From positions 372,001-436,000 of the forward strand of contig NZ_SMGI01000002.1 in assembly GCF_004346845.1 (NCBI RefSeq): 64,000 bases of DNA. The letters run 5' to 3'. The notes under the pieces were generated by a model that was not told where the DNA came from, made no database searches, and saw only the letters and a list, made by a program, of their open reading frames with translations. Below are positions 30,003-42,286 of this stretch, piece after piece (positions within the stretch are counted from its first letter, which is position 1; each line of letters opens with the position of its first letter). The stretch is from Winogradskyella wandonensis (GTDB taxonomy: Bacteria; Bacteroidota; Bacteroidia; Flavobacteriales; Flavobacteriaceae). A program made the position numbers and the translations under genes.

Positions 30003-32114
30003 CTAAAAATCATTATACCAATTAAACAAGTCCGTACGGACACCAAAGCTAATCCAAGTGGTGTTGGTGCGATTTACAAATGCAGTTTCTGCCGTCGGGT
30101 CGAAGTTACGATAGTTAATATTGGTAAATACTCTTAAGTTACTTACTGGATTAATTATATAACCCGCCATGAGTTCCCCATGAAAAACTGAAGTGTTATT
30201 ACCTTGTCCAATTTCTATGCCTGTATCGCTAGGTCGGTCGTTCTCTGTGCCATAAATATCGCCACCATAATAGAAGGTATCTCCACCATCTCTAAAATCA
30301 AAGCCGCGCTCTCCAAAAATTAACTTAGCATCCGCAAACCATCGTTTATTGTTGTAGCGACCAATTAAAACTAATTCTCGGAAATTATTACCCCATAAAT
30401 GCGCCATAGATTGGTTATTGTGCCCATAATTAAGCACAATGGTATTATGAGAATACGTATACGGACGTACTTGGTTATATTCGGCTTGTAGCAATAATCC
30501 ATCAACATTAAACGCATTGTAATATTTAGCACCTAACTGAAAGCCGAACTTGTTTTTCCAGCTTTTGTTACCATCTCTAACATCGGATAACGAGAATTCA
30601 TCTACTATAAACTGTCCGTATAAATTCACCTTATTATTCCATTTGTATTTTGCTGATAATCCTAAAACGGCATTACCCGCATCTTGTCCTGTACTAAATT
30701 CTATCGCTCTCAGAAAGATTAGTGGATTTAAGTAGTTGACATCAAACCCTCGGTCGTTGGAGTTGGTCCAAATTACGGATTCAAAAAAACCAAGATTGAG
30801 ACGTTTAGATACATTCCAACTTAAATAATGGTTAGCCATATATTTTGTTAAAAAGGCACCGTCTTGCACCACTGCTGGCCGTACATCTTTTAGCCACATC
30901 CACGTACTTGTGTATTTTATTTTCCAAAAGTTAAGGTTAGTCTTTAAAAAAGGTGAAGGGCTTGCTACATCACTTTGAAATAAAGAGCGGTAACCGTCAC
31001 CTATAAAATTTTTGCCATGTCCAAATTGTACATTTAAAAATTTAGCAGGCGTGTAAGAAAGGTACGCTTCTGCTACCGGATAATCATAAGCATCATCCTT
31101 AAAACGTTTTGCAATCCCACGACCCGGAATTATTGCTGGGTCTGGGCCAAAGGCTTTTAAGCTTTCTGCATACTGATTAAAATACTCTGCAAAACGTCCC
31201 TGACTCTCAAAAAAAGAGGTCGTAAAATTGAATTTTTTTCCTAATCCTGCTTGTATAAAAACACCTCTAGTGTTGTTGTAGGTCGAGCCACCTTCAGAAT
31301 CACTTCCTACTTGTAAATCTAAGATTGGGTCGATGGTAAACCAGTAATCTTTAGACTGTACTTGCACCAAATGCTCATTCCAAAGTTTGCGACCAATCCA
31401 TGAATGCGCGTCTTTTGCTAAGCTTTCTTTTTCTGCTTTAAAATCGTAATATGGCGCAACATCGTTGTAAATAAATGGTTTAGCTGCTGTGTGCGAATTT
31501 GCGCCAATAACATTCATATTAGCATCGAAACGCGAGTAATACGAATGTGTAAATGGAATGTTTAGCTGGCTACTATATTCGCGTTTGTCATATGGCTTAA
31601 GAGACGCTGTGATACTGTCTAATTCGTTAGAGAGCGTAGCATTCAAGGTGTCGTCTTTTGATTTTATTTTTTCCTTTTTCGAAGTTTCTGGTGAAAACTC
31701 AACTTCTAGAGGATACATTAACGGAATATTGATTTTGGTGGAGTATTGTACATAGGTAGGTTTACCGTCGTACATGGCTGGTGTAACATTTGGCAATTCT
31801 GAAAATACACGCTTAGTTTCGTCTTTTAATTCTTCATAAGCAGCATCGACAAAAATAATTTGAAACTTTCCTTCTTTATCCACCTCGAAAAGCACCTTTA
31901 CATCGCCTTTATAGTTTTCTTTATCAACAACATCTGGTATTTCGAAAGTTTTAAAAATAAAACGATGAAGCTCTAATCTAAAACAGTCTTGAAGTTCTTC
32001 GTATGCTTTTGACTGGCAATCTGCAAAAATTGGTGGCTTTTGGTAATTAACTTCGGATTGTGCAGCATTTTTAGACAAAACAAATAGAAAAACGAAAGCA
32101 AAAAAATAGCGCAT
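30003..32114 (-). CDS. Outer-membrane protein with N-terminal TonB-C-like domain, RemB-like gliding protein candidate
   Basis: 703 residues. Signal peptide 1-19 (ends NAAQ). Residues about 27-132 match the pattern of TonB C-terminal domains in Bacteroidota, including paired Cys33/Cys44, DVKVLFEVDKEGKF and a GKP...YSTKINIPL end that parallels the two tonB genes upstream. Residues about 200-703 are rich in aromatic, alternating beta-strand sequence (capsule-assembly/OM-barrel-like) and finish ...LFNWYNDF with terminal Phe. The whole resembles the protein annotated as RemB in flavobacterial gliding work, recalled from memory, not checked. It follows the short tonB gene after a terminator. Confidence 0.6.
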   Translation of the reverse strand: MRYFFAFVFLFVLSKNAAQSEVNYQKPPIFADCQSKAYEELQDCFRLELHRFIFKTFEIPDVVDKENYKGDVKVLFEVDKEGKFQIIFVDAAYEELKDETKRVFSELPNVTPAMYDGKPTYVQYSTKINIPLMYPLEVEFSPETSKKEKIKSKDDTLNATLSNELDSITASLKPYDKREYSSQLNIPFTHSYYSRFDANMNVIGANSHTAAKPFIYNDVAPYYDFKAEKESLAKDAHSWIGRKLWNEHLVQVQSKDYWFTIDPILDLQVGSDSEGGSTYNNTRGVFIQAGLGKKFNFTTSFFESQGRFAEYFNQYAESLKAFGPDPAIIPGRGIAKRFKDDAYDYPVAEAYLSYTPAKFLNVQFGHGKNFIGDGYRSLFQSDVASPSPFLKTNLNFWKIKYTSTWMWLKDVRPAVVQDGAFLTKYMANHYLSWNVSKRLNLGFFESVIWTNSNDRGFDVNYLNPLIFLRAIEFSTGQDAGNAVLGLSAKYKWNNKVNLYGQFIVDEFSLSDVRDGNKSWKNKFGFQLGAKYYNAFNVDGLLLQAEYNQVRPYTYSHNTIVLNYGHNNQSMAHLWGNNFRELVLIGRYNNKRWFADAKLIFGERGFDFRDGGDTFYYGGDIYGTENDRPSDTGIEIGQGNNTSVFHGELMAGYIINPVSNLRVFTNINYRNFDPTAETAFVNRTNTTWISFGVRTDLFNWYNDF

Positions 32115-32173: not shown

Positions 32174-32203
32174 AAAAAGCCGTTATTAAAAATAACGACT
32201 TTC
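32174..32203 (-). terminator. Intrinsic terminator after the short-linker tonB
   Basis: On the minus strand AAAGTCGTTATT / AATAACGGCTTT (one mismatch, 3-nt loop) is followed by TTTTGTTTTTA. It separates the tonB paralogue (stop at 32333) from the RemB-like gene. The spacer 32204-32332 also holds a second long hairpin, CTCACTT...AAGTGAG (32230-32236/32263-32269) with further AT pairing inside. Confidence 0.8.
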
Positions 32204-32332: not shown

Positions 32333-33124
32333 TTAATCTTGAACTTTGAATTTTATAGGTAAACTGTACATTACATTAACGGGAGTAATTCCCATTTTAC
32401 CTGGTTCCATTTTTGGAATTTTATTAGCGATACGCTCTGCTTCTTGCTGAAGTTTTGGGTGTGGTGCACGGGTTTTAATATCTTTAATATGACCTGTTTT
32501 ATCGACTGTAAAGGTAACATAGATTTTTTGTTCACCCGATAAACCGTAATCACTTGCTATGTCAGTATTGAATTTTCTTTGTACCAACTTATTCATCTTT
32601 TCGTTAAGACATTTTTCTCGTTCTGAATTTAAATTATACTTCTCACATCCTGGGAAAATTGGAACAAACTCAACATTCTTAATGTTAAAGTTATCGACTG
32701 GAGTATCTATTGGGTCTTTGATGTCTTCTATCTTAACTAATTTCTTATCAGAAACATCTATGTCTGGTGTAATAATATCTTCAACTTTAGGCTCTGGAGT
32801 ATCGTTGTCTTGTGGAACGTAAGTATCAAGTAACTTCTTACTAGGTGTTTTTTTTGCTTCTTGCTTTACCTCTGGCTCGTAAACCTTAACGTCCGTCATG
32901 GCTACATCGTAGACCTCGACATCAATTTCTGGTCGCTCTGGTTTAATTATTTTACTCTCAAACCGCATTTCAAAAAGGGTAAAGGTTCCCAATAAACATA
33001 GGATTAGCCCAATTTGAAAATACAGTGTGGAGTTTTTTTGTAAATTAACCTCGTGCTTTTGAGATTTTCTCACTTCAGAAGCGTTCTGACCAACGCTTTT
33101 GTTGTTTTGACTTTGATTTTTCAT
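32333..33124 (-). CDS. tonB: TonB-family energy-transducing protein (Asp/Pro linker)
   Basis: 263 residues: cytoplasmic N-terminus, one transmembrane helix (YFQIGLILCLLGTFTLFEM, about 36-54), periplasmic linker of alternating charged/Pro sequence (PRPEIDV...TPEPKVEDIITPDIDV), and a TonB C-terminal domain about 155-263 (VPIFPGCEKYNLN...GLSGEQKIYVTFTVDKTGHI...YSLPIKFKVQD). It couples the ExbB/ExbD motor to TonB-dependent receptors. It is a tandem paralogue of the next upstream tonB, with the C-terminal half more alike than the linker, which lacks the poly-proline run. A MITE-like element lies just upstream. Confidence 0.92.
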   Translation of the reverse strand: MKNQSQNNKSVGQNASEVRKSQKHEVNLQKNSTLYFQIGLILCLLGTFTLFEMRFESKIIKPERPEIDVEVYDVAMTDVKVYEPEVKQEAKKTPSKKLLDTYVPQDNDTPEPKVEDIITPDIDVSDKKLVKIEDIKDPIDTPVDNFNIKNVEFVPIFPGCEKYNLNSEREKCLNEKMNKLVQRKFNTDIASDYGLSGEQKIYVTFTVDKTGHIKDIKTRAPHPKLQQEAERIANKIPKMEPGKMGITPVNVMYSLPIKFKVQD

Positions 33125-33404: not shown

Positions 33405-34130
33405 TTAGTCTTGTACTTGGAATAAAATTGGTAGTGAGTAAGGCACTGTTACAGCCTTGCCTCTTTGCTTACCTGGTTTCATTTGTGGTAGCAAACCAAT
33501 AACACGCTTAGCTTCTTTTTCTAATCCTGGATGTGGCGCTCTTGCTCCAACATTAACAATTCTTCCAGTTTTATCTATTTTAAAGAATACACTAATACGC
33601 TGTCTCCCAGATAAACCTAAGTCACTCGCTAAATCTGTATTAAACTTTTTGTTTACAAACTTTGCCACTTTCTCAGACATACATTTTTTCTTAGCATTAT
33701 TACCTTTCTCTTTTTCACATCCTGGAAAAACTGGCACATTTTCGATAACTGCAAAAGGAACCTCTAAGTCTTCCTCAACTTCTTCTACTTCTACTTCCTC
33801 GACCTCAACGATTTCTGCGTCTTGCTCTGTTTCTGTAGATTCGATTACCGTTTCTTCAACTTCTTCTTCGTCTTCTACAACTTCAATTTCCACTGGCGCT
33901 ACTGGTGGCGGTGGTGGTGGCGGTGGTGGCGTTACTATTTGCTCTGTAATCGGAATTTCTTCTTCTAACTCATCATCTAGATTTAAACCATCTAACGCGA
34001 TGTCACTTCTATCATACGTTTTGTAGTTAATAGCTAAATTGGTAACTAATAACATTAACACTAAACCAACAGCGAAGTAGATTGAGCTGTTACGACTTAC
34101 GTCTGATTTTGGATTCTTTTTAGGTTCCAT
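33405..34130 (-). CDS. tonB: TonB-family energy-transducing protein (poly-proline linker)
   Basis: 241 residues: transmembrane helix about 17-33 (YFAVGLVLMLLVTNLAI), linker containing nine consecutive prolines near residue 68-76 followed by a Glu/Val-rich extended stretch, and the TonB C-terminal domain about 130-241 (ENVPVFPGCEKEKGN...GLSGRQRISVFFKIDKTGRI...PYSLPILFQVQD). The Pro/Glu linker spans the periplasm to reach TonB boxes of outer-membrane receptors. It is the closest relative of the tonB gene 280 bp downstream, from which it is separated by terminator and MITE-like element. No exbB/exbD nearby. Confidence 0.94.
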   Translation of the reverse strand: MEPKKNPKSDVSRNSSIYFAVGLVLMLLVTNLAINYKTYDRSDIALDGLNLDDELEEEIPITEQIVTPPPPPPPPPVAPVEIEVVEDEEEVEETVIESTETEQDAEIVEVEEVEVEEVEEDLEVPFAVIENVPVFPGCEKEKGNNAKKKCMSEKVAKFVNKKFNTDLASDLGLSGRQRISVFFKIDKTGRIVNVGARAPHPGLEKEAKRVIGLLPQMKPGKQRGKAVTVPYSLPILFQVQD

Positions 34131-34192: not shown

Positions 34193-34570
34193 TTATTTTA
34201 ACTTTAGTTTTCTAAAAAATAATGCAACAACAATTGTACCAAGTAAAACTCCTAAACCATTTGCTGTTAAATCTAAGACATCAAAAGTTCTTAGAGGGTT
34301 AACCTTTTCTTGTATTAATTCTAAAAAAAGACCTAAAACTAAAGTTGAAGCAAACCCAATTAAAAGGGGCCTCTTTAGTCTATATAATATAAAATTATAA
34401 CACCAGAGTATTGCTAAACCTGTGTACGCAATAAAATGGAAGATTTTATCTTGATGCTTTATTTTGGTATCAGGTAAAACATTCTCTGCATTAGCAAATG
34501 TAAAATACAATAAGACTATTGTGTAGAGTATAGCGACTAAAAGGACAGCTCTGGGATTCTTAAGCACCAA
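34193..34570 (-). CDS. VanZ-like family membrane protein
   Basis: 125 residues with four transmembrane helices (about 8-24, 45-64, 68-85, 100-118) and the VanZ-like pattern [17 protein letters not shown]...ELIQ...[20 protein letters not shown]. Bacterial VanZ-like proteins are widespread and mostly uncharacterised; the enterococcal namesake gives low-level teicoplanin resistance. The start overlaps the end of gcvH by 11 bp, so translation is probably coupled. A gcvH-vanZ pair is a frequent flavobacterial arrangement, of unknown meaning. Confidence 0.88.
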
Positions 34571-34940
34571 TTAAGGCTTTGTAATCATCAGCAGATAAAA
34601 GCTCTTCTATTTGACTTTCATCCGAGAACTTTACCTTAATCATCCAACCAGCGCCATAAGGGTCTGAGTTTACCGTTTCTGGCTCGTCTTCTAGAGCTTC
34701 GTTAAACTCGATAATCTCACCACTTAATGGTAAAAACAAGTCAGATACTGTTTTTACAGCCTCAACTGTACCAAAAACTTCTTCGACATCTAGAGTTTCA
34801 TCTACTGTTTCTACTTCTATGTAGACAATATCACCAAGTTCGCTTTGTGCAAAATCTGTAATACCAACAGTTGCTGTATCACCTTCAATTTTTACCCACT
34901 CGTGGTCTTTTGTATATTTTAAGTCCGCTGGAATATTCAT
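34560..34940 (-). CDS. gcvH: Glycine cleavage system H protein
   Basis: 126 residues, typical length. Lipoylation site Lys63 in [12 protein letters not shown], preceded by [20 protein letters not shown] and followed by [22 protein letters not shown]. GcvH carries the aminomethyl group between P, T and L proteins of glycine decarboxylation in the cytoplasm. The other gcv genes are not in the window. It has its own promoter in the short spacer after sprA and is translationally coupled to the vanZ-like gene. Confidence 0.97.
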
Positions 34941-34996: not shown

Positions 34997-37900
34997 TTAA
35001 TTACCAAAATTATAACGTAAAGTAAAGCCCGATCTTATAGAGGTTTGAGGGAAAGATGTTGAGATTGCAAAATCCGAGAACGAATAGTCGAAAAAGAAGA
35101 TTCCTGTAAGGTTTCTATTTAAATCGTACTGCGCATTAAACTTTGCTCCCCAAATGGTTTGTCCTGCCGTTATTTGATTGTTCTCTAAATCTAGATACCG
35201 TATTATCGTTAAATTGTCTCTAACATTAGCATCTAAGGTAAGATTTAAATCGCTGGCTACATTACCGCCACGGTTTCCGCTTAATTTTTTGAAGAGTTTT
35301 ACATTCTTTATTCTATAACCTAAACCAAGCGTGTATTCTTTACTCTGCTCTTCAGTCATTAGATTGTTGTCGAAGCTTAGTAATAATAAGCGGCTAGTCC
35401 TAACTTCTGCTGTAACCTGAAGTGAATTTTTCATCGTAGCTTCAATACGAATTAATGGGCTAAACGATTCTTCTAAATTAATACTACTGAAAAGTGTTTC
35501 ATTTTTAAAGTCTCCTGCTTGATTTACTTCATTAGGATTTGATGGATTAAAATCTAAATTAGTTCTAAACTGGTTGATACTATACGTTGAGCGATAACCA
35601 TGCTGCAACGAAAAACGTTTGAAATTCTTTTTAAACCAAGGCAGCTTCATCAGTCCTGTGTATTTTAATTGCCAATTAGGGATTGGGATATCTCTAAACG
35701 CGCCTAGACTAACATCTTCTGCATCAGTCCCATGGTATGCCGACAAAAATGAAGGTAATAATACTTGTTGACTGTTTTTACTAAACCCAATAGGGAAACC
35801 ATCTGCATCTGTTGGGAAGGTTGTATTACCGTAAAAGTCTCTTGCTAGTCTATTTGCTACTATTAATCTATTGGCTCTAAAATCATCAAATGTGGCCGAC
35901 TGATTAGCATCACTTTTACTAAAAGCCGTACGTATTAACGATGTTGAAATATTGAAATTACCAAAAGAATTGTTTATCAATTCTTCATAAGCATCACTCA
36001 GTCCATCATTGTCACTGTCTAAAGCTCTAAAATTTTGCGCAGTATTTTCTTGATAGTTTCTGCTACCAATTAAATCGATTTTAAGATCACGCATTGGCTC
36101 AAGATTTGCCGTAAAATCAAGTCTTTTATCGGTATTCTCTGTGTACTGCTGGTTAAACTCTGGGAATATAGTTAACCAACCGTTTTGTGCTACACGCTGG
36201 CGGATATCGCGCTGGCTTCCGAAAGTAAATCCTAGAGTAGGTTTTAACGTTCCTACGAAGCCTGGCGTATTTAGGTAACCTGGTAAAAATGTACCATTAT
36301 TTTCTACATAATTGATATTTACACGTTTTACCATAGTTACAACATCCAAGAATGCGTTGCCTATTTTTCTACCAACCGTTTTCTTTTTAGGTAGTGCAGG
36401 ATTATTTGAGGTATTTCTATTTCCGCCTGAAGTTCTTCTAGACGTATTTCGTCTTGAGTTAGACGCTTTTTTTACACCCAACTCTTTATACAACGACTCC
36501 ATATTTAGGGTTGTATTTAGTGTATGCGTATTTGCGTTCTGAATGGTGTTCCCTAGATTAAAAACACCTGTAACATTACCATCTTGATCTGTAGCTTCGA
36601 AATTAAGATTTAAATCCGACCCTTTCTGCCATGTAAAATTACTATTGTAGGTATATGTAGATTTTAAGAAGCTTAAAATAGGAATCTTGTTTAGAGGCAA
36701 TTCGTAATTGACTAATAATTGCTGATTTTGAATATTTGGGTCACCGACATCGAAAAACCCATCCCAAATATCTAATTCTGGGTCTTGACGCCCGTTAAGA
36801 CGGTCGTCTATAAAGTAATTTCTAACAATATTATTATTGTTTGCCGTGTAGTTGAAACTAAGCGCATCTGTTAGATTATAGTTTATAGCGTACTGAAAAT
36901 CGAACGTATAATTTCTTCTAAATACTTCTTCTATACCAATGTTATTTCCTGCGAGTGCCACCTCTCTAAATTTTTGACTGTTAAAATCTCTATTAACATC
37001 TGTAGTTACAGAGAAATTAGTTGGTAACAAATTAAAATTAAAATCTTTGAGAATCTTCCAATACTTGCCAGTAAACAAAGAATCATTTTTCTTAAATGGT
37101 TCTATTTTCTTTGGATTAAACGCATAATTGTAATTTACGCCAGCTCTTACATTTTGTTGAAGTGCACGCTCGATTTCAAAATCTCTACTTTCTATTTTGT
37201 TATTAGAATAATTAAACGTTAAGTTCTCTACATCGTAAAAACGCTTTGGCTTATCGCTTGTTCTATTTTTCTTTACACCAATAAAGTTAATGCTTCGTCT
37301 TTTGGTGTAGGTTTCGGATTGTCGTTCGATTTGCTCTGCTTCTTCTGCTGATTGTGCAGCCGCTACACGAGATTCTAGAGTTAAATCGTTGTAAAACGCG
37401 TCAAACTGAGGTGTAATTAATTCTTCACTATGTATGTAATTAAGTGGAAGATTAATTCCCCATTTCTTTGGTAATAATTGTCCTAATTGAAGATTTGTGG
37501 TTACATCAAAACCAATAACATCTTCTCTGCTACGTTCATTTGGGTTTTGTTCTATGCCACCAAATCCAATAGTACTACGTTTACCCGAAGCACTAACGTT
37601 AGCAAAGTCGGCAAAGTTGGTATCCATAGACATTACTGCCGCCCATCCACCTTCGTTCTCTAGGTCCGACATACGTAACTCATTAAACCACACCTCGCCA
37701 CAGACAGGTGTACGATTTAGTCCAGAATGTTTTAAACCAACCATTAATACCCTGATGTTTCCAAAGTTAGGGTTTCCTTTTATAGCGACTCGTTGATTTT
37801 GAATACCACCAACAGGGAATTCTAAGGATGGTAATTCTGCCAATTCACCGTTGATTACATCGTAATATGTTGGATCTGCGTTTGCTAAAGTTTGGTTAGA

Positions 37901-40900
37901 AATACCTCTAGATTTTATCTCTTGAAAGAATTCTAATGGGATATTAATTTCATTTTCTTCTGGCCAAATTTGGCGCTCTAGGGATGTACTTCCAGACTGA
38001 ATTAAATCACTATTTATTAAAGGTAGTTCAACCTGATAGAAATTTTCGGTAAAGTCATTTCCAAGCCTTATAAAAGCTACCAACTCGCCATCTTGTAAAG
38101 GTTCGTTTTCTTGAGACTCGGCATGTAAAAACATACGTAATTTTTTGTACTGACGCATATCTAAACTAATATTCTTAAAAACGCCTCGGCCATCGGTTTC
38201 TTGTAAATCGCAAGCCTCTAAGACTAAAGATTGCTCATTTTGGCGAATAACGTTGTTATTATTATTTAACTCTTCGCGTCTTACGCCAGGCGGAATTACA
38301 TAGTTTCCATCATTTTCTTGAATACCAATAATAGCCACATTAAATTCTGGCTCATTAGTAGCTGTGGTATTATTACTTAACGGTTGAGTAAAACGACGCC
38401 AGTCGCTACGTACCAAATCTAAACTTGCAAAACGCAAAACCGTTTGCTCTGTAAAATCCGTAAGGTACATTCGAGCAAAACGCACAGAACGTATATCAGA
38501 AATACCGCCTATGGCTCTAGTTGGCTCTGAAATAGGTAGTCTAAATTGATACCACGTTACGTCGCGTGTGGTACCATTAGGTAGCGTAACAGGCGCAACT
38601 TTAACATCGTTAATTAATGTGTTATTTGGGTTTAAGGCTGATGGCGTTATATCAATTTCATACTCATAATAACTATTAATCGTGTTCATGGTATTATCAC
38701 GATTAATATCTTCTACATCCGGTTGTGTTGTATTACCTCTGTTCGTTTGAGAGAATTCGTCTGGTGTATTGCCTTCGAAACCATTGTACTGACGGTAACG
38801 CTCGAAAATGTTTCCTTCGGTATTTAAAAAATACCTGTAGTTATCTAAAGATGGGTCAGGCCCAAAATCTAGACCAGAAGGTATAATGCCTTGATTGCCT
38901 AATTGATTTACAAAATCGATTTCTTCTGCATCGTCATAACCATCGTAACCGACATCTTGGTTTATACGTTCTTGACCCGTAGTCCCAAACGTGTAAATTA
39001 ACGATTGTGTTTGTGGAACGGCATAGGGCGTTTGCGCACTTATATTTTGAAGAAAGCTAATATCGCCATCTTCTGGAAGTCCATTTTCGAATTGCTTTTT
39101 ACCGTCTTTAAGTACATCTTCAGATATGTTACCCAGATTAATAGTTAGTTTTCCTCCAGGGTTTGTAGGATTATCTAAGTACGGATCTTGAATCCAAAAC
39201 TCGATATACTCCACATTGGCCTGCTCAAAATCGGTAGAGGTAATTTGTCTAGTAATACCAGCCCAGCTGTTATTAGGATTTAACGGTTGACCATTTGCAG
39301 CGTTAGGATCAAAATTATAAGGACCTCGCTCTGTTGGGTAATACGCCAAATCTAGAGTATTAATTACGGCTTGTTGTCCTTGTACTAAATCTATTTCAGG
39401 AAAAATTTCTCTGATAAAGACTCGCCTAGTATATAAATCCGAGACATCGTCGTCGGTAATTTCACTTGGTCGTTGTGGTCCGTAAAATATAGGATCTATA
39501 CTATACCAGTTTAGTAGTGCACGACCAAAACCATTCTCTAAACCAATATCATCCTCTGGGTCTGGCGCTCCATCTCCGTTAAGGTCTATTGGTCTACTAG
39601 ATAAGTTCCATGCAAATGGTGAGAGTAAATCTATGTTACCTTGTGTTCCTTCGAAATCATCTATATACGCTGTGGCCTCACCATTAAAATCTGTTCCTTT
39701 AGGAGCACCTGGTGCTAAATACGCAAATTCACCTCTTACAGAGAAATTGGATGGTACATCTGTATCTATATTTGGCAGCTTATTTACTAAACGCGTAAAA
39801 AATGGCACCTCTGTAGCATAGTTTCCGTTAATACCAAAAATTGTATTGTTAATAGGTTCCGAATCGAAATTTGCCTTTTGTGTTATTGGGCGTTCATTTA
39901 AGTTAAGAAGTGTACCACCAAGTAAGAAATTTTCATTGAATTGATGCTCTACATTTATCCCAGTAAATCTGCGTGTTTGCTGTCCAAAAAGTGCATTGTT
40001 CTCAACATCTACGCTTATTGGTGTATTCGACGCTTTTAAAGATTCGTCTAGAATTTCTACGCGACCAGCAGCATAGTTTACTACATAATCTACTCCTTCT
40101 ACTAAAAGTTGCCCGTTTGCTGTAACTCTTACCGAACCTCTAGCTGCATTGAATGGAATAGGAATTCCGCCTCCGCTGCCACTATTTTGGTAACGCCCTT
40201 TTATTTGGAACTTATTCTTTTCTGCATCGTTTAATGCTTGGGTTTTTGTTGATTTATATAGTAAATCATACACATACTTGGCTTGGTTTGGGTTGTACGA
40301 ATTAGGGTCATTATAGTCAGTTTCGTTATTTAAAGAATTGCCATCGTTATCTAAAACATCGAATAAATACCTTCCGAATGGTTGTACTTTAGTAAAAATA
40401 ATTTTTCCGTTTTGCACTAAAACGGTTTGCCCAGGAACAAAATCAAAGAACCCATCACCACCTTCCTGTGGATCACCATTAAAGTTCAATCTATCAACAT
40501 ATAGTAATTGAATTAAAGAGTTATTTTCTATTAAGTCCTCAGGAGGTGGAGGATTATTAGAATCAATTACATTTCCGTTAATATCAACTCCGAATGAACT
40601 CTGACCTTCTGCTGGCGTAATATAATTAAGCGGCGATGCCTCAGTATAAAAAATATTTAATCTAAAATCTTGTTGAGATAATTGAAACGCACCGGTATCG
40701 TAAATGTTCTTCATCATTAAATCCCAGATTGGCTCTTCAACTGCAGTTACAGCACTTTTCAGCATTTTTAGGACTAAACTTTGATTGTTTACAATTTGAT
40801 TTCCATTCCCTTGGTTAATGGTAACATCTGTGGCATTTACCCCATCGTTGGCAAACTCTCCAACTTGAAAAACCTGACCTCCAACCGTGTATTGAAACGC

Positions 40901-42286
40901 AACGGCCAAAACCTCGTCATTTAATAAGCGTTGGTTTAAAGAAATATAGCCCAATTGTGTATTAAGCTGGTAATCTTGTCCTTGTTGAAGTTGTCTTGCG
41001 CTTTCTAAAATGCCATAATCGAACCCTTCATTGACAGGAACATTAATTCCGCTCTCTACATTAGTTATATCTCTTACGTTTTCTGTTAATAAAGAACCTG
41101 CACCACCGATATTGGTTGGATCAAAATCATTATTTCCGTTATCTGGTAAACTTCCTGTTGGCACATTAACAAATCCTGCTGGAGGATTATCCAAACCTAT
41201 ATCGTCTGACTCTCCCAAATCTTGCAACGCTACTATATTTCGTACGTTTTGCGTTTGGTTATTTCTATTAGTTACCCATACTTCAATTCTTGTAATTTGA
41301 ATATTATTATTAATGTACGGATAGGTTAGCATGGCTCTGTCGTAATCCTCTTCGAAGTATTGGGCTAGGAAAAAGTGACGGTTTTCGTCGTAATCCCGTG
41401 CAAAGAATTCAAACTCTTCTAAGGTTCCACCACCTTGAGCTGTTACAGAACGCGACTCAGACTGTTGCTCCGAGAACACTGCGGTCACGGTAGTTTTACC
41501 AAACTGCAGTTGTGTTTTAACTCCAAAAAGGCTTTGTGCTCCACTTATTAATGAGCTATTTAGAGGCATATTTACATTACCGACCTCTATTTTTTGGATG
41601 ATATCGTCTTCTGTTGGTGTGTATTCTAACTTTACTAAATTCTGAAAGTCAAAAGTTCGTTCTGTATCGTATTGCGCGTTAACCTGAAGGCGCGTTCCAA
41701 CGGTACCTGTTAAGCTCATGCTAATACGTTGGTCAAAGTCAAAGGTAAAATTACTACGGTTTCTTGGTGTAAAAGTAGGGTTGTCTTGTTGTGAAAATAA
41801 GATACCTAAATCTATATCTACAGAACCTTGCGGAACAACCGATATCGTGTTTCCTCCAAAGATGGTCTCGAAAAAGTCATTATTCACATAAAAATCTGGA
41901 AGTAGGTTTTTCTGGCCTTCTTCACTTCCTTCTTTCAAACCAGAAGTTGCATCTATTTTCTCTTTATAATAGGCATTAAGTCGCTCGCGTTGCACTAATT
42001 TTTGAAACTGTTCCCGAGTTAAAATCAGTGGATAGTTGACATTAAACTTTCCGAACTTCTCGTTATAAATATATCTATCTAAAACTGGGTCGTATGTGTA
42101 TTTAGATTCGATACTACCCAATTTAGGAAGCTTAATATCTCCGAAGGTAAACGTTGTTTTGGTAGAATCCTGTTGTGTTGGATTCGTTTGAGCCCAGCTA
42201 ACACCAAAACACAAAAAGCTTAGAAGTACTAAGCAATATCTTAACTTGATTACAGAAAATGAGTTGATAGCGGTGGTTGTATTCAA
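34997..42286 (-). CDS. sprA: Cell surface protein SprA, outer-membrane translocon of the type IX secretion system
   Basis: 2429 residues, about the length of SprA from Flavobacterium johnsoniae. Signal peptide about 1-33 (ends SWAQ). Mature sequence begins TNPTQQDSTKTTFTFGDIKLPKLG and shows long beta-strand/turn-rich stretches typical of the giant 36-strand barrel, with interspersed SprA family segments such as ...YLAPGAPKGTDFNGEATAYID and FSVRGEFA. It ends in alternating beta-strands (FTLRYNFGN). SprA is the pore through which T9SS cargo, including both type B proteins in this window, crosses the outer membrane. It is 5 bp downstream of ruvA in the same operon. Confidence 0.96.
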   Translation of the reverse strand: MNTTTAINSFSVIKLRYCLVLLSFLCFGVSWAQTNPTQQDSTKTTFTFGDIKLPKLGSIESKYTYDPVLDRYIYNEKFGKFNVNYPLILTREQFQKLVQRERLNAYYKEKIDATSGLKEGSEEGQKNLLPDFYVNNDFFETIFGGNTISVVPQGSVDIDLGILFSQQDNPTFTPRNRSNFTFDFDQRISMSLTGTVGTRLQVNAQYDTERTFDFQNLVKLEYTPTEDDIIQKIEVGNVNMPLNSSLISGAQSLFGVKTQLQFGKTTVTAVFSEQQSESRSVTAQGGGTLEEFEFFARDYDENRHFFLAQYFEEDYDRAMLTYPYINNNIQITRIEVWVTNRNNQTQNVRNIVALQDLGESDDIGLDNPPAGFVNVPTGSLPDNGNNDFDPTNIGGAGSLLTENVRDITNVESGINVPVNEGFDYGILESARQLQQGQDYQLNTQLGYISLNQRLLNDEVLAVAFQYTVGGQVFQVGEFANDGVNATDVTINQGNGNQIVNNQSLVLKMLKSAVTAVEEPIWDLMMKNIYDTGAFQLSQQDFRLNIFYTEASPLNYITPAEGQSSFGVDINGNVIDSNNPPPPEDLIENNSLIQLLYVDRLNFNGDPQEGGDGFFDFVPGQTVLVQNGKIIFTKVQPFGRYLFDVLDNDGNSLNNETDYNDPNSYNPNQAKYVYDLLYKSTKTQALNDAEKNKFQIKGRYQNSGSGGGIPIPFNAARGSVRVTANGQLLVEGVDYVVNYAAGRVEILDESLKASNTPISVDVENNALFGQQTRRFTGINVEHQFNENFLLGGTLLNLNERPITQKANFDSEPINNTIFGINGNYATEVPFFTRLVNKLPNIDTDVPSNFSVRGEFAYLAPGAPKGTDFNGEATAYIDDFEGTQGNIDLLSPFAWNLSSRPIDLNGDGAPDPEDDIGLENGFGRALLNWYSIDPIFYGPQRPSEITDDDVSDLYTRRVFIREIFPEIDLVQGQQAVINTLDLAYYPTERGPYNFDPNAANGQPLNPNNSWAGITRQITSTDFEQANVEYIEFWIQDPYLDNPTNPGGKLTINLGNISEDVLKDGKKQFENGLPEDGDISFLQNISAQTPYAVPQTQSLIYTFGTTGQERINQDVGYDGYDDAEEIDFVNQLGNQGIIPSGLDFGPDPSLDNYRYFLNTEGNIFERYRQYNGFEGNTPDEFSQTNRGNTTQPDVEDINRDNTMNTINSYYEYEIDITPSALNPNNTLINDVKVAPVTLPNGTTRDVTWYQFRLPISEPTRAIGGISDIRSVRFARMYLTDFTEQTVLRFASLDLVRSDWRRFTQPLSNNTTATNEPEFNVAIIGIQENDGNYVIPPGVRREELNNNNNVIRQNEQSLVLEACDLQETDGRGVFKNISLDMRQYKKLRMFLHAESQENEPLQDGELVAFIRLGNDFTENFYQVELPLINSDLIQSGSTSLERQIWPEENEINIPLEFFQEIKSRGISNQTLANADPTYYDVINGELAELPSLEFPVGGIQNQRVAIKGNPNFGNIRVLMVGLKHSGLNRTPVCGEVWFNELRMSDLENEGGWAAVMSMDTNFADFANVSASGKRSTIGFGGIEQNPNERSREDVIGFDVTTNLQLGQLLPKKWGINLPLNYIHSEELITPQFDAFYNDLTLESRVAAAQSAEEAEQIERQSETYTKRRSINFIGVKKNRTSDKPKRFYDVENLTFNYSNNKIESRDFEIERALQQNVRAGVNYNYAFNPKKIEPFKKNDSLFTGKYWKILKDFNFNLLPTNFSVTTDVNRDFNSQKFREVALAGNNIGIEEVFRRNYTFDFQYAINYNLTDALSFNYTANNNNIVRNYFIDDRLNGRQDPELDIWDGFFDVGDPNIQNQQLLVNYELPLNKIPILSFLKSTYTYNSNFTWQKGSDLNLNFEATDQDGNVTGVFNLGNTIQNANTHTLNTTLNMESLYKELGVKKASNSRRNTSRRTSGGNRNTSNNPALPKKKTVGRKIGNAFLDVVTMVKRVNINYVENNGTFLPGYLNTPGFVGTLKPTLGFTFGSQRDIRQRVAQNGWLTIFPEFNQQYTENTDKRLDFTANLEPMRDLKIDLIGSRNYQENTAQNFRALDSDNDGLSDAYEELINNSFGNFNISTSLIRTAFSKSDANQSATFDDFRANRLIVANRLARDFYGNTTFPTDADGFPIGFSKNSQQVLLPSFLSAYHGTDAEDVSLGAFRDIPIPNWQLKYTGLMKLPWFKKNFKRFSLQHGYRSTYSINQFRTNLDFNPSNPNEVNQAGDFKNETLFSSINLEESFSPLIRIEATMKNSLQVTAEVRTSRLLLLSFDNNLMTEEQSKEYTLGLGYRIKNVKLFKKLSGNRGGNVASDLNLTLDANVRDNLTIIRYLDLENNQITAGQTIWGAKFNAQYDLNRNLTGIFFFDYSFSDFAISTSFPQTSIRSGFTLRYNFGN

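Follow-up and report, generated by a model that had tools for sequence, protein, structure and literature searches.

The protein of 703 residues encoded at positions 30003–32114 on the minus strand of the window (64,000 nucleotides of Winogradskyella wandonensis DNA) is a family-wide fusion of two known modules, a TonB C-terminal (TonB_C) domain and an outer-membrane β-barrel, the latter of which is here reinterpreted as Wzi-like. We take the gene to be remB from its position relative to sprA, and it is the Wzi-like nature of the RemB barrel that is new here. The chances are, in our estimation, about even that RemB is a surface-polysaccharide barrel of the Wzi type equipped with a non-energised periplasmic docking domain of the TonB type. 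The computed basis for this reading is the architecture of the protein, the fold of its N-terminal domain, the restriction of the fusion to one clade, the purifying selection acting on it, the kinship of the barrel to Wzi via intermediates, and the exopolysaccharide context of barrel homologues.

Protein architecture and gene neighbourhood

The open reading frame begins with a signal peptide of approximately 18 residues (32061–32114, on the minus strand like all features given below), for which cleavage before Q19 was judged by eye; Q19 is invariant among the 78 rows of alignment A1, from which, and hence also from A3, L066 was left out for its uncertain start. The TonB_C domain follows at residues 24–133 (31716–32045), as placed by Pfam, AF2, VIA-align, hhalign and a Cys pair, and is joined by a variable linker, residues 134–178 (31581–31715; mean pairwise identity 0.26), to a helical region, residues 179–255 (31350–31580), which AF2, VIA-align and conservation set at the position of the N-terminal helical bundle of Wzi. 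The linker is of low confidence in the full-length AF2 model and of uneven length, the spacing from P131 to Y193 ranging from 48 to 70 residues among RemB homologues. Finally, for residues 256–703 (30006–31349) the AF2 model predicts a barrel of 18 long strands, and the protein ends in a C-terminal Phe, as is the rule for outer-membrane barrels inserted by BAM. The architecture proposed in the earlier note, in which a signal peptide leads into a TonB-C domain and then an outer-membrane barrel, and an anchor in the inner membrane is lacking, is thus supported by the sequence as read by eye, by Pfam and by AF2. The hallmarks of a TonB energy transducer, namely an N-terminal inner-membrane anchor and a proline-rich periplasmic arm, were not seen by eye, and from the topology of the protein its TonB_C domain would sit in the periplasm.

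Genes in the window run in the order sprA, gcvH, vanZ, tonB, tonB and then the 703-residue gene. The first of these (34997–42286, 2429 residues) we take to be sprA-like from its sequence and gene order, and the next two are presumably gcvH-like (34560–34940) and VanZ-like (34193–34570), as assumed from their sequences; both are conserved neighbours in relatives. The distal tonB (33405–34130, 241 residues) and the proximal tonB (32333–33124, 263 residues) each carry a Pfam TonB_C match, and the arm of the distal protein is strongly acidic and rich in Glu and Val, with a run of nine prolines in addition. The proximal tonB is separated from remB by a terminator-like hairpin (32175–32203), one of three such sites in the region against a mean of 1.2 in shuffled sequence, and the two genes may therefore be separate transcripts.

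Of 70 loci in close relatives where 4500 bases or more of upstream sequence are available, 69 have sprA, gcvH and vanZ near remB together with separate TonB_C genes, two of them in 67 cases and one in 2. The single exception, L083, has remB with none of sprA, gcvH, vanZ or tonB adjoining, and its remB seems to have moved to another site. A further group of genomes (g2), which we take for Flavobacterium, encodes barrels 56–62% identical to this one. At the three g2 loci inspected (L165, L170 and L175) a single gene, which we assume from its sequence to be deoC-like, replaces the tonB genes, and at the six g2 loci with flanking sequence no further TonB_C gene was found beside remB. With one deoC-like gene standing in for the tonBs, remB comes fourth after sprA in g2, as it does by locus number in F. 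johnsoniae; in the window it comes fifth, because there are two tonB genes. In those parts of the literature that deal with these loci, sprA and remB are Fjoh_1653 and Fjoh_1657 in F. johnsoniae, with equal spacing in F. suncheonense (PMC4910214), and FP2121 and FP2117 in F. psychrophilum (PMC4572689). The order sprA-gcvH-vanZ-x-remB of the g2 genomes fits the F. johnsoniae numbering as given in the corresponding passages of PMC4910214. The naming of the protein as RemB is thus supported by gene order relative to sprA.

A TonB C-terminal domain ahead of the barrel

The flavobacterial TonB C-terminal pattern that had been noticed in residues 27–132 or thereabouts is confirmed by profile and by fold. 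Pfam TonB_C (PF03544) matches residues 60–129 of the whole protein with E 1.7e-5 and 25.6 bits, against a cut-off of 24.6, and the excised domain with E 1e-6 and 29.5 bits; at E ≤ 0.01 the match recurs in 72 of 78 homologous fragments. When the N-terminal domains of 78 RemBs were aligned by hhalign with the C-termini of 30 neighbouring TonBs, a probability of 99.2 and E 3.3e-19 resulted. NCBIfam TIGR01352 (tonB_Cterm) is absent from the matches of this protein at E ≤ 10, and a sequence search of the PDB gave no useful match.

Structure prediction, put forward earlier as a check on the pattern and run here by AF2 on residues 19–140 with 78 sequences, bore it out. The model (mean pLDDT 92.2, pTM 0.84) has its elements in the order helix, helix, strand, strand, helix, short hairpin, strand, and so shares the helix-strand-strand-helix-strand arrangement of the TonB C-terminal domain (PF03544; 6i97_D, 2grx and 2gsk). 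Its single Foldseek match at E ≤ 0.001 is the C-terminal domain (CTD) of Pseudomonas aeruginosa TonB bound to FoxA (6i97_D), which is also best by VIA-align (Z 8.9, rmsd 1.9, 85 residues), and all 22 VIA-align entries at Z ≥ 5 are C-terminal domains of TonB, the TonB homologue FusB or TolA.

Residues C33 (32016–32018) and C44 (31983–31985) are kept in all 134 RemB homologues of the family and are the sole cysteines in 100 of them; this set is without L037 and L060, which are cut at contig ends, and L098, the protein's own copy, and it includes a few near-copies, L047/L099 and L078/L103 apparently being the same genomes. The same pair, invariant in the 30 neighbouring TonB C-termini (alignment A4), is common to the RemB domain and the neighbouring TonBs, and the two residues presumably form a disulphide. 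Since Pfam, hhalign, the Cys pair, AF2 and VIA-align agree, the similarity extends beyond low-complexity positions. Chance or low-complexity resemblance was considered separately and is ruled out by Pfam in the homologues, VIA-align and hhalign.

Unlike that of TonB, the RemB domain lies N-terminal to a barrel, lacks both an inner-membrane anchor and a proline-rich arm, and has an altered strand-3 motif. Other TonB_C domains of the same genome are also detached from TonB, in the lipoprotein-like L012 and L008 and the secreted-type L007, and an M56-like membrane protein, L003 (G000:C4:176706-177485), has two copies, all types being judged by eye. These proteins are likewise devoid of a TonB-type anchor; unlike RemB, none is joined to a barrel, again by eye.

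Strand 3 and partner binding

In the passages of PMC11658791 on FhuA and TonB, strand 3 of the TonB domain is the pairing partner of the TonB box. The strand-3 motif [YF].LPI is present in 30 of 31 neighbouring TonBs and in 4 of 134 RemBs (L137, L138, L167 and L178), and the motif R-A-x-H ahead of helix 2 occurs in 18 of the 31 TonBs and in none of the 134 RemBs. Loss of the strand-3 motif is no proof of lost function, because a looser form of it is also missing from 18 of 42 other TonB_C domains, including the TonB-like L002 of the same genome. RemB has conserved states of its own, which among 30 representatives are Y115 (0.93), N116 (0.87), F104 (1.00) and P131 (0.97); residue 116 is D in the protein of the window and N in most RemB representatives. 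From these sequence patterns it would appear that the TonB_C domain of RemB probably kept its fold and changed its ligand.

These observations bear on the possibility, which we regard as unlikely, that RemB acts as a decoy or competitor of TonB, its TonB_C domain binding the TonB boxes of TonB-dependent transporters and so competing for them or pre-positioning them for TonB. Such a role would suit a fold equal to that of the TonB-CTD in complex with FoxA, the hhalign probability to the neighbouring TonBs, the presence of a separate TonB_C gene, or of two, next to remB in 69 of the 70 relatives with sufficient upstream sequence, and the four RemBs that keep the strand-3 motif. On the other hand, nearly all RemBs have lost that motif and every one the R-A-x-H, a point that is weak given the 18 of 42 other domains, and the six g2 loci with flank have no other TonB_C gene beside remB, a deoC-like gene occupying the place in the three inspected. 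The altered strand 3 thus offers a weak argument against simple TonB mimicry.

Distribution, origin and selection of the fusion

A search with the barrel only found it in 109 of 296 genomes of the order. Within its own family (f1), which we take for Flavobacteriaceae because named relatives in the same clade are tagged as such, it is present in 56 of 73 genomes, as counted from a listing ordered by kinship. The fused TonB_C domain is found in every one of these 56 genomes (the window, L099–L138 and L165–L179), at all 80 loci of a further set of homologues, and at none of 31 loci from other families of the order and phylum (L139–L164 and L180–L184); the remaining rows outside the family were judged by frame length alone. 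Nine loci elsewhere in the phylum, with long frames or otherwise of interest (L219–L226 and L228), show no TonB_C domain by eye in their first 260 residues, and Pfam, run on four of them, does not list one.

In a barrel tree of 94 rows, made by a quick method with no bootstrap and excluding L163 and L183, a branch with SH-aLRT 100 separates all 65 f1 rows from the rest. Their sister is the unfused pair from family f2 (L145 and L146), the joint branch having 97. Because the fusion is found in 56 of 56 f1 genomes and at 0 of 31 loci outside, with one branch between them in the tree, the simplest reading is that it was probably gained once, on the f1 stem.

As to the source of the domain, a tree of TonB_C domains (111 columns, midpoint root, many forks open and bootstrap not settled) joins 30 RemB-labelled rows in one clade (100/99), whose stem measures 1.11 changes per column, and puts both neighbouring tonBs in a separate clade of 42 rows; the RemB domain of L167 enters this tree as L196 and is not among the 30. 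Since the RemB clade is separate and on a long stem, the domain is old and no recent copy of its neighbours. A recent duplication of a neighbouring tonB is rejected as its source by these separate clades. The likeness to the two upstream tonBs remarked on in the earlier note therefore holds for the domain and the Cys pair, which are common to them, and fails where it might be read as recent copying.

Mean pairwise identity, from 800 random pairs of the 134 sequences, is 0.52 for the TonB_C domain, 0.26 for the linker, 0.62 for the helical region and 0.68 for the barrel. The corresponding dN/dS ratios over 38 disjoint pairs, which are rough because dS exceeds 1, are 0.097, 0.19, 0.046 and 0.034. 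The TonB_C domain is under purifying selection that is weaker than that on the barrel.

A domain conserved to this degree, though less than its barrel, on a linker of low confidence and variable length could also be a passive tether or plug, binding peptidoglycan or packing beneath the barrel and so stabilising or closing it, with no protein ligand. We think this improbable, as in the other sampled families the barrel manages without the domain (0 of 31 loci), and a helical region already stands ahead of it.

Kinship of the barrel to Wzi

The outer-membrane barrel of the earlier note is supported, and its Wzi-like nature is what had been missed. The full-length AF2 model is middling (mean pLDDT 68.9, pTM 0.60) and has helices between residues 157 and 245, followed by the 18 long strands. 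AlgE and porins lead its Foldseek matches, with Wzi not among the best 50 rows. VIA-align, run on Foldseek candidates, places Escherichia coli Wzi (2ynk) first, with Z 19.2 over 370 residues at rmsd 4.0 for model residues 182–696; the runners-up are OccK10 (Z 16.8) and AlgE (Z 16.7 over 327 residues). Wzi, the outer-membrane lectin of E. coli group 1 capsules (2ynk, PF14052), presumably has no TonB_C domain, unlike RemB. In the structural passages of PMC9601211, Wzi has 18 barrel strands and a helical bundle at its N-terminus and serves in surface anchoring of capsule, and EpsX, unlike Wzi, has no helices before its barrel. The RemB model likewise combines 18 strands with preceding helices.

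Sequence evidence connects the two families through distant relatives. Sixteen barrel homologues coincide with Pfam Wzi (PF14052) matches over cut-off, and residues 321–587 of this protein align by BLASTP with residues 193–458 of L225 (E 8e-27), of which residues 221–548 are a PF14052 match (E 2e-21). RemB itself goes undetected by the Pfam Wzi model: PF14052 is not listed at E ≤ 10 for this protein or elsewhere in its genome (G000), nor in any of seven f1 genomes tested. Any PF14052 match at all occurs in only 23 of 60 barrel-bearing genomes, and within the same order only G150 has one, its barrel scoring 16.3 bits, below cut-off. Against a three-row Bacteroidota Wzi alignment, from which L186 was left out since its start was not found, hhalign of RemB, alone or together with 16 outgroup barrels, gave no match (probabilities 0.6 and 3.0). 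Because a direct profile-profile match is absent, the kinship rests on intermediates and fold. The RemB barrel is Wzi-like, and its homology to Wzi runs via intermediates over an overlapping stretch.

Outside the family, barrel genes are found among genes for polysaccharide synthesis. Directly upstream of the barrel gene at two f6 loci (L152 and L155) are a WecA-like transferase, a LegC-like aminotransferase and an epimerase of the polysaccharide-synthesis family, and a NeuD-type acetyltransferase is present at L152 as well. The matches to WecA and LegC fall short of the NCBIfam cut-offs, and the L152 proteins pass those of Pfam for glycosyltransferase 4, DegT and Polysacc_synt_2. Glycosyltransferases, an O-antigen ligase family protein, an MBOAT protein and a sulfotransferase lie near the f7 (L154) and f10 (L153) barrels; the neighbourhood of L147 was read by eye only. 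At the f2 locus L145 a hexapeptide transferase gene adjoins the barrel gene and is followed by genes that, by eye, are hydrogenase-like. No sprA-like or separate TonB_C gene is found beside any of the 31 barrels outside f1 within the available flank, which upstream is under 1.5 kb for L139–L144, L149 and L150. At most f1 loci with flank, the barrel gene is near sprA and outside polysaccharide clusters.

Exosortase XrtF is encoded directly downstream of the barrel gene in two f6 genomes (L152:6086-8241 and L155:6247-8423), which suggests a link between the barrel and the exosortase F system. Two barrel homologues of family f22, L223 (G444) and L224 (G360), have an N-terminal extension of another kind, a proline-rich stretch of some 55–60 residues after the signal peptide, and L224 passes the Pfam Wzi cut-off. 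At L226 (G084:C4) a frame of 847 residues joins a GpsA-like N-terminus, as judged by eye, to the barrel, a fusion that may be an assembly effect, since the stretch has unreadable bases.

With AlgE first in Foldseek and homologues in exopolysaccharide gene contexts, one may ask whether RemB is instead an export pore, an AlgE/EpsX-like polysaccharide translocon whose TonB_C domain docks a periplasmic export protein. This seems to us quite unlikely: VIA-align ranks Wzi above AlgE in both Z and length aligned, and the helices before the barrel are as in Wzi and not as in the EpsX described in those passages of PMC9601211.

Proposed mechanism

In the docking model that we favour, the RemB of Flavobacteriaceae would bind or organise surface polysaccharide as a Wzi-type barrel of the outer membrane. 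A single ancestral fusion would have added the TonB C-terminal domain, which a flexible linker, a few tens of residues long, would keep in the periplasm. Having neither a transmembrane anchor nor a proline-rich arm, RemB would not be driven by ExbBD, and its TonB_C domain would serve as a passive docking module. The edge strand of that domain may pair with a peptide from a partner in the periplasm or outer membrane, and docking would then bring the polysaccharide barrel beside that partner, be it a TonB-dependent transporter or a component of the secretion or gliding machinery. Another reading, in which RemB is an outer-membrane-anchored mirror of TonB whose TonB_C domain contacts either the energised machinery of Ton or of gliding or else the partners of TonB, and so couples the polysaccharide barrel to proton-driven envelope machinery, strikes us as rather improbable.

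Implications for RemB and gliding

The passages on RemB in PMC4910214, PMC5714932, PMC4666044, PMC4572689, PMC6801697, PMC4891872 and PMC9076710, those on Fjoh_1657 included, mention neither a TonB_C domain nor a Wzi-like barrel, and a search conducted mostly outside subscription papers found no literature that treats RemB and Wzi together. The name is also used outside Flavobacteriaceae, since a passage of PMC4666044 applies it to a Sphingobacterium protein. According to passages of PMC6801697, remA, remB and sprB are missing from two non-gliding species that retain other gliding genes, an absence that fits a role of RemB in gliding; in PMC4910214, F. suncheonense is scored non-gliding yet has remB. 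GldJ was searched for in 44 f1 genomes, 27 of the 56 with the barrel and 17 that lack it, and exceeds its cut-off in every one. Genomes lacking remB thus keep gldJ, and nothing further on gliding follows: the presence of gldJ is no test of gliding, because non-gliding species retain gliding genes and F. suncheonense has remB.

That RemB is an adhesin-like protein secreted to the surface by T9SS, as it is entered together with RemA in tables of PMC4910214, PMC4572689 and PMC4891872 (T9SS or PorSS), and as its joint absence with RemA and SprB from the two non-gliding species in PMC6801697 might suggest, is extremely unlikely for a predicted 18-strand barrel that ends in Phe as BAM-inserted proteins do and for which NCBIfam lists no T9SS C-terminal sorting family at E ≤ 10. 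On our reading, the grouping of RemB with T9SS cargo in such tables would need correcting.

RemB is counted among the gliding proteins and is adhesin-like in published tables, with no mechanism given in them. A Wzi-type barrel combined with a periplasmic docking domain gives RemB a testable mechanism, and suggests that the domain with which TonB grips its partners is reusable on the outer-membrane side.
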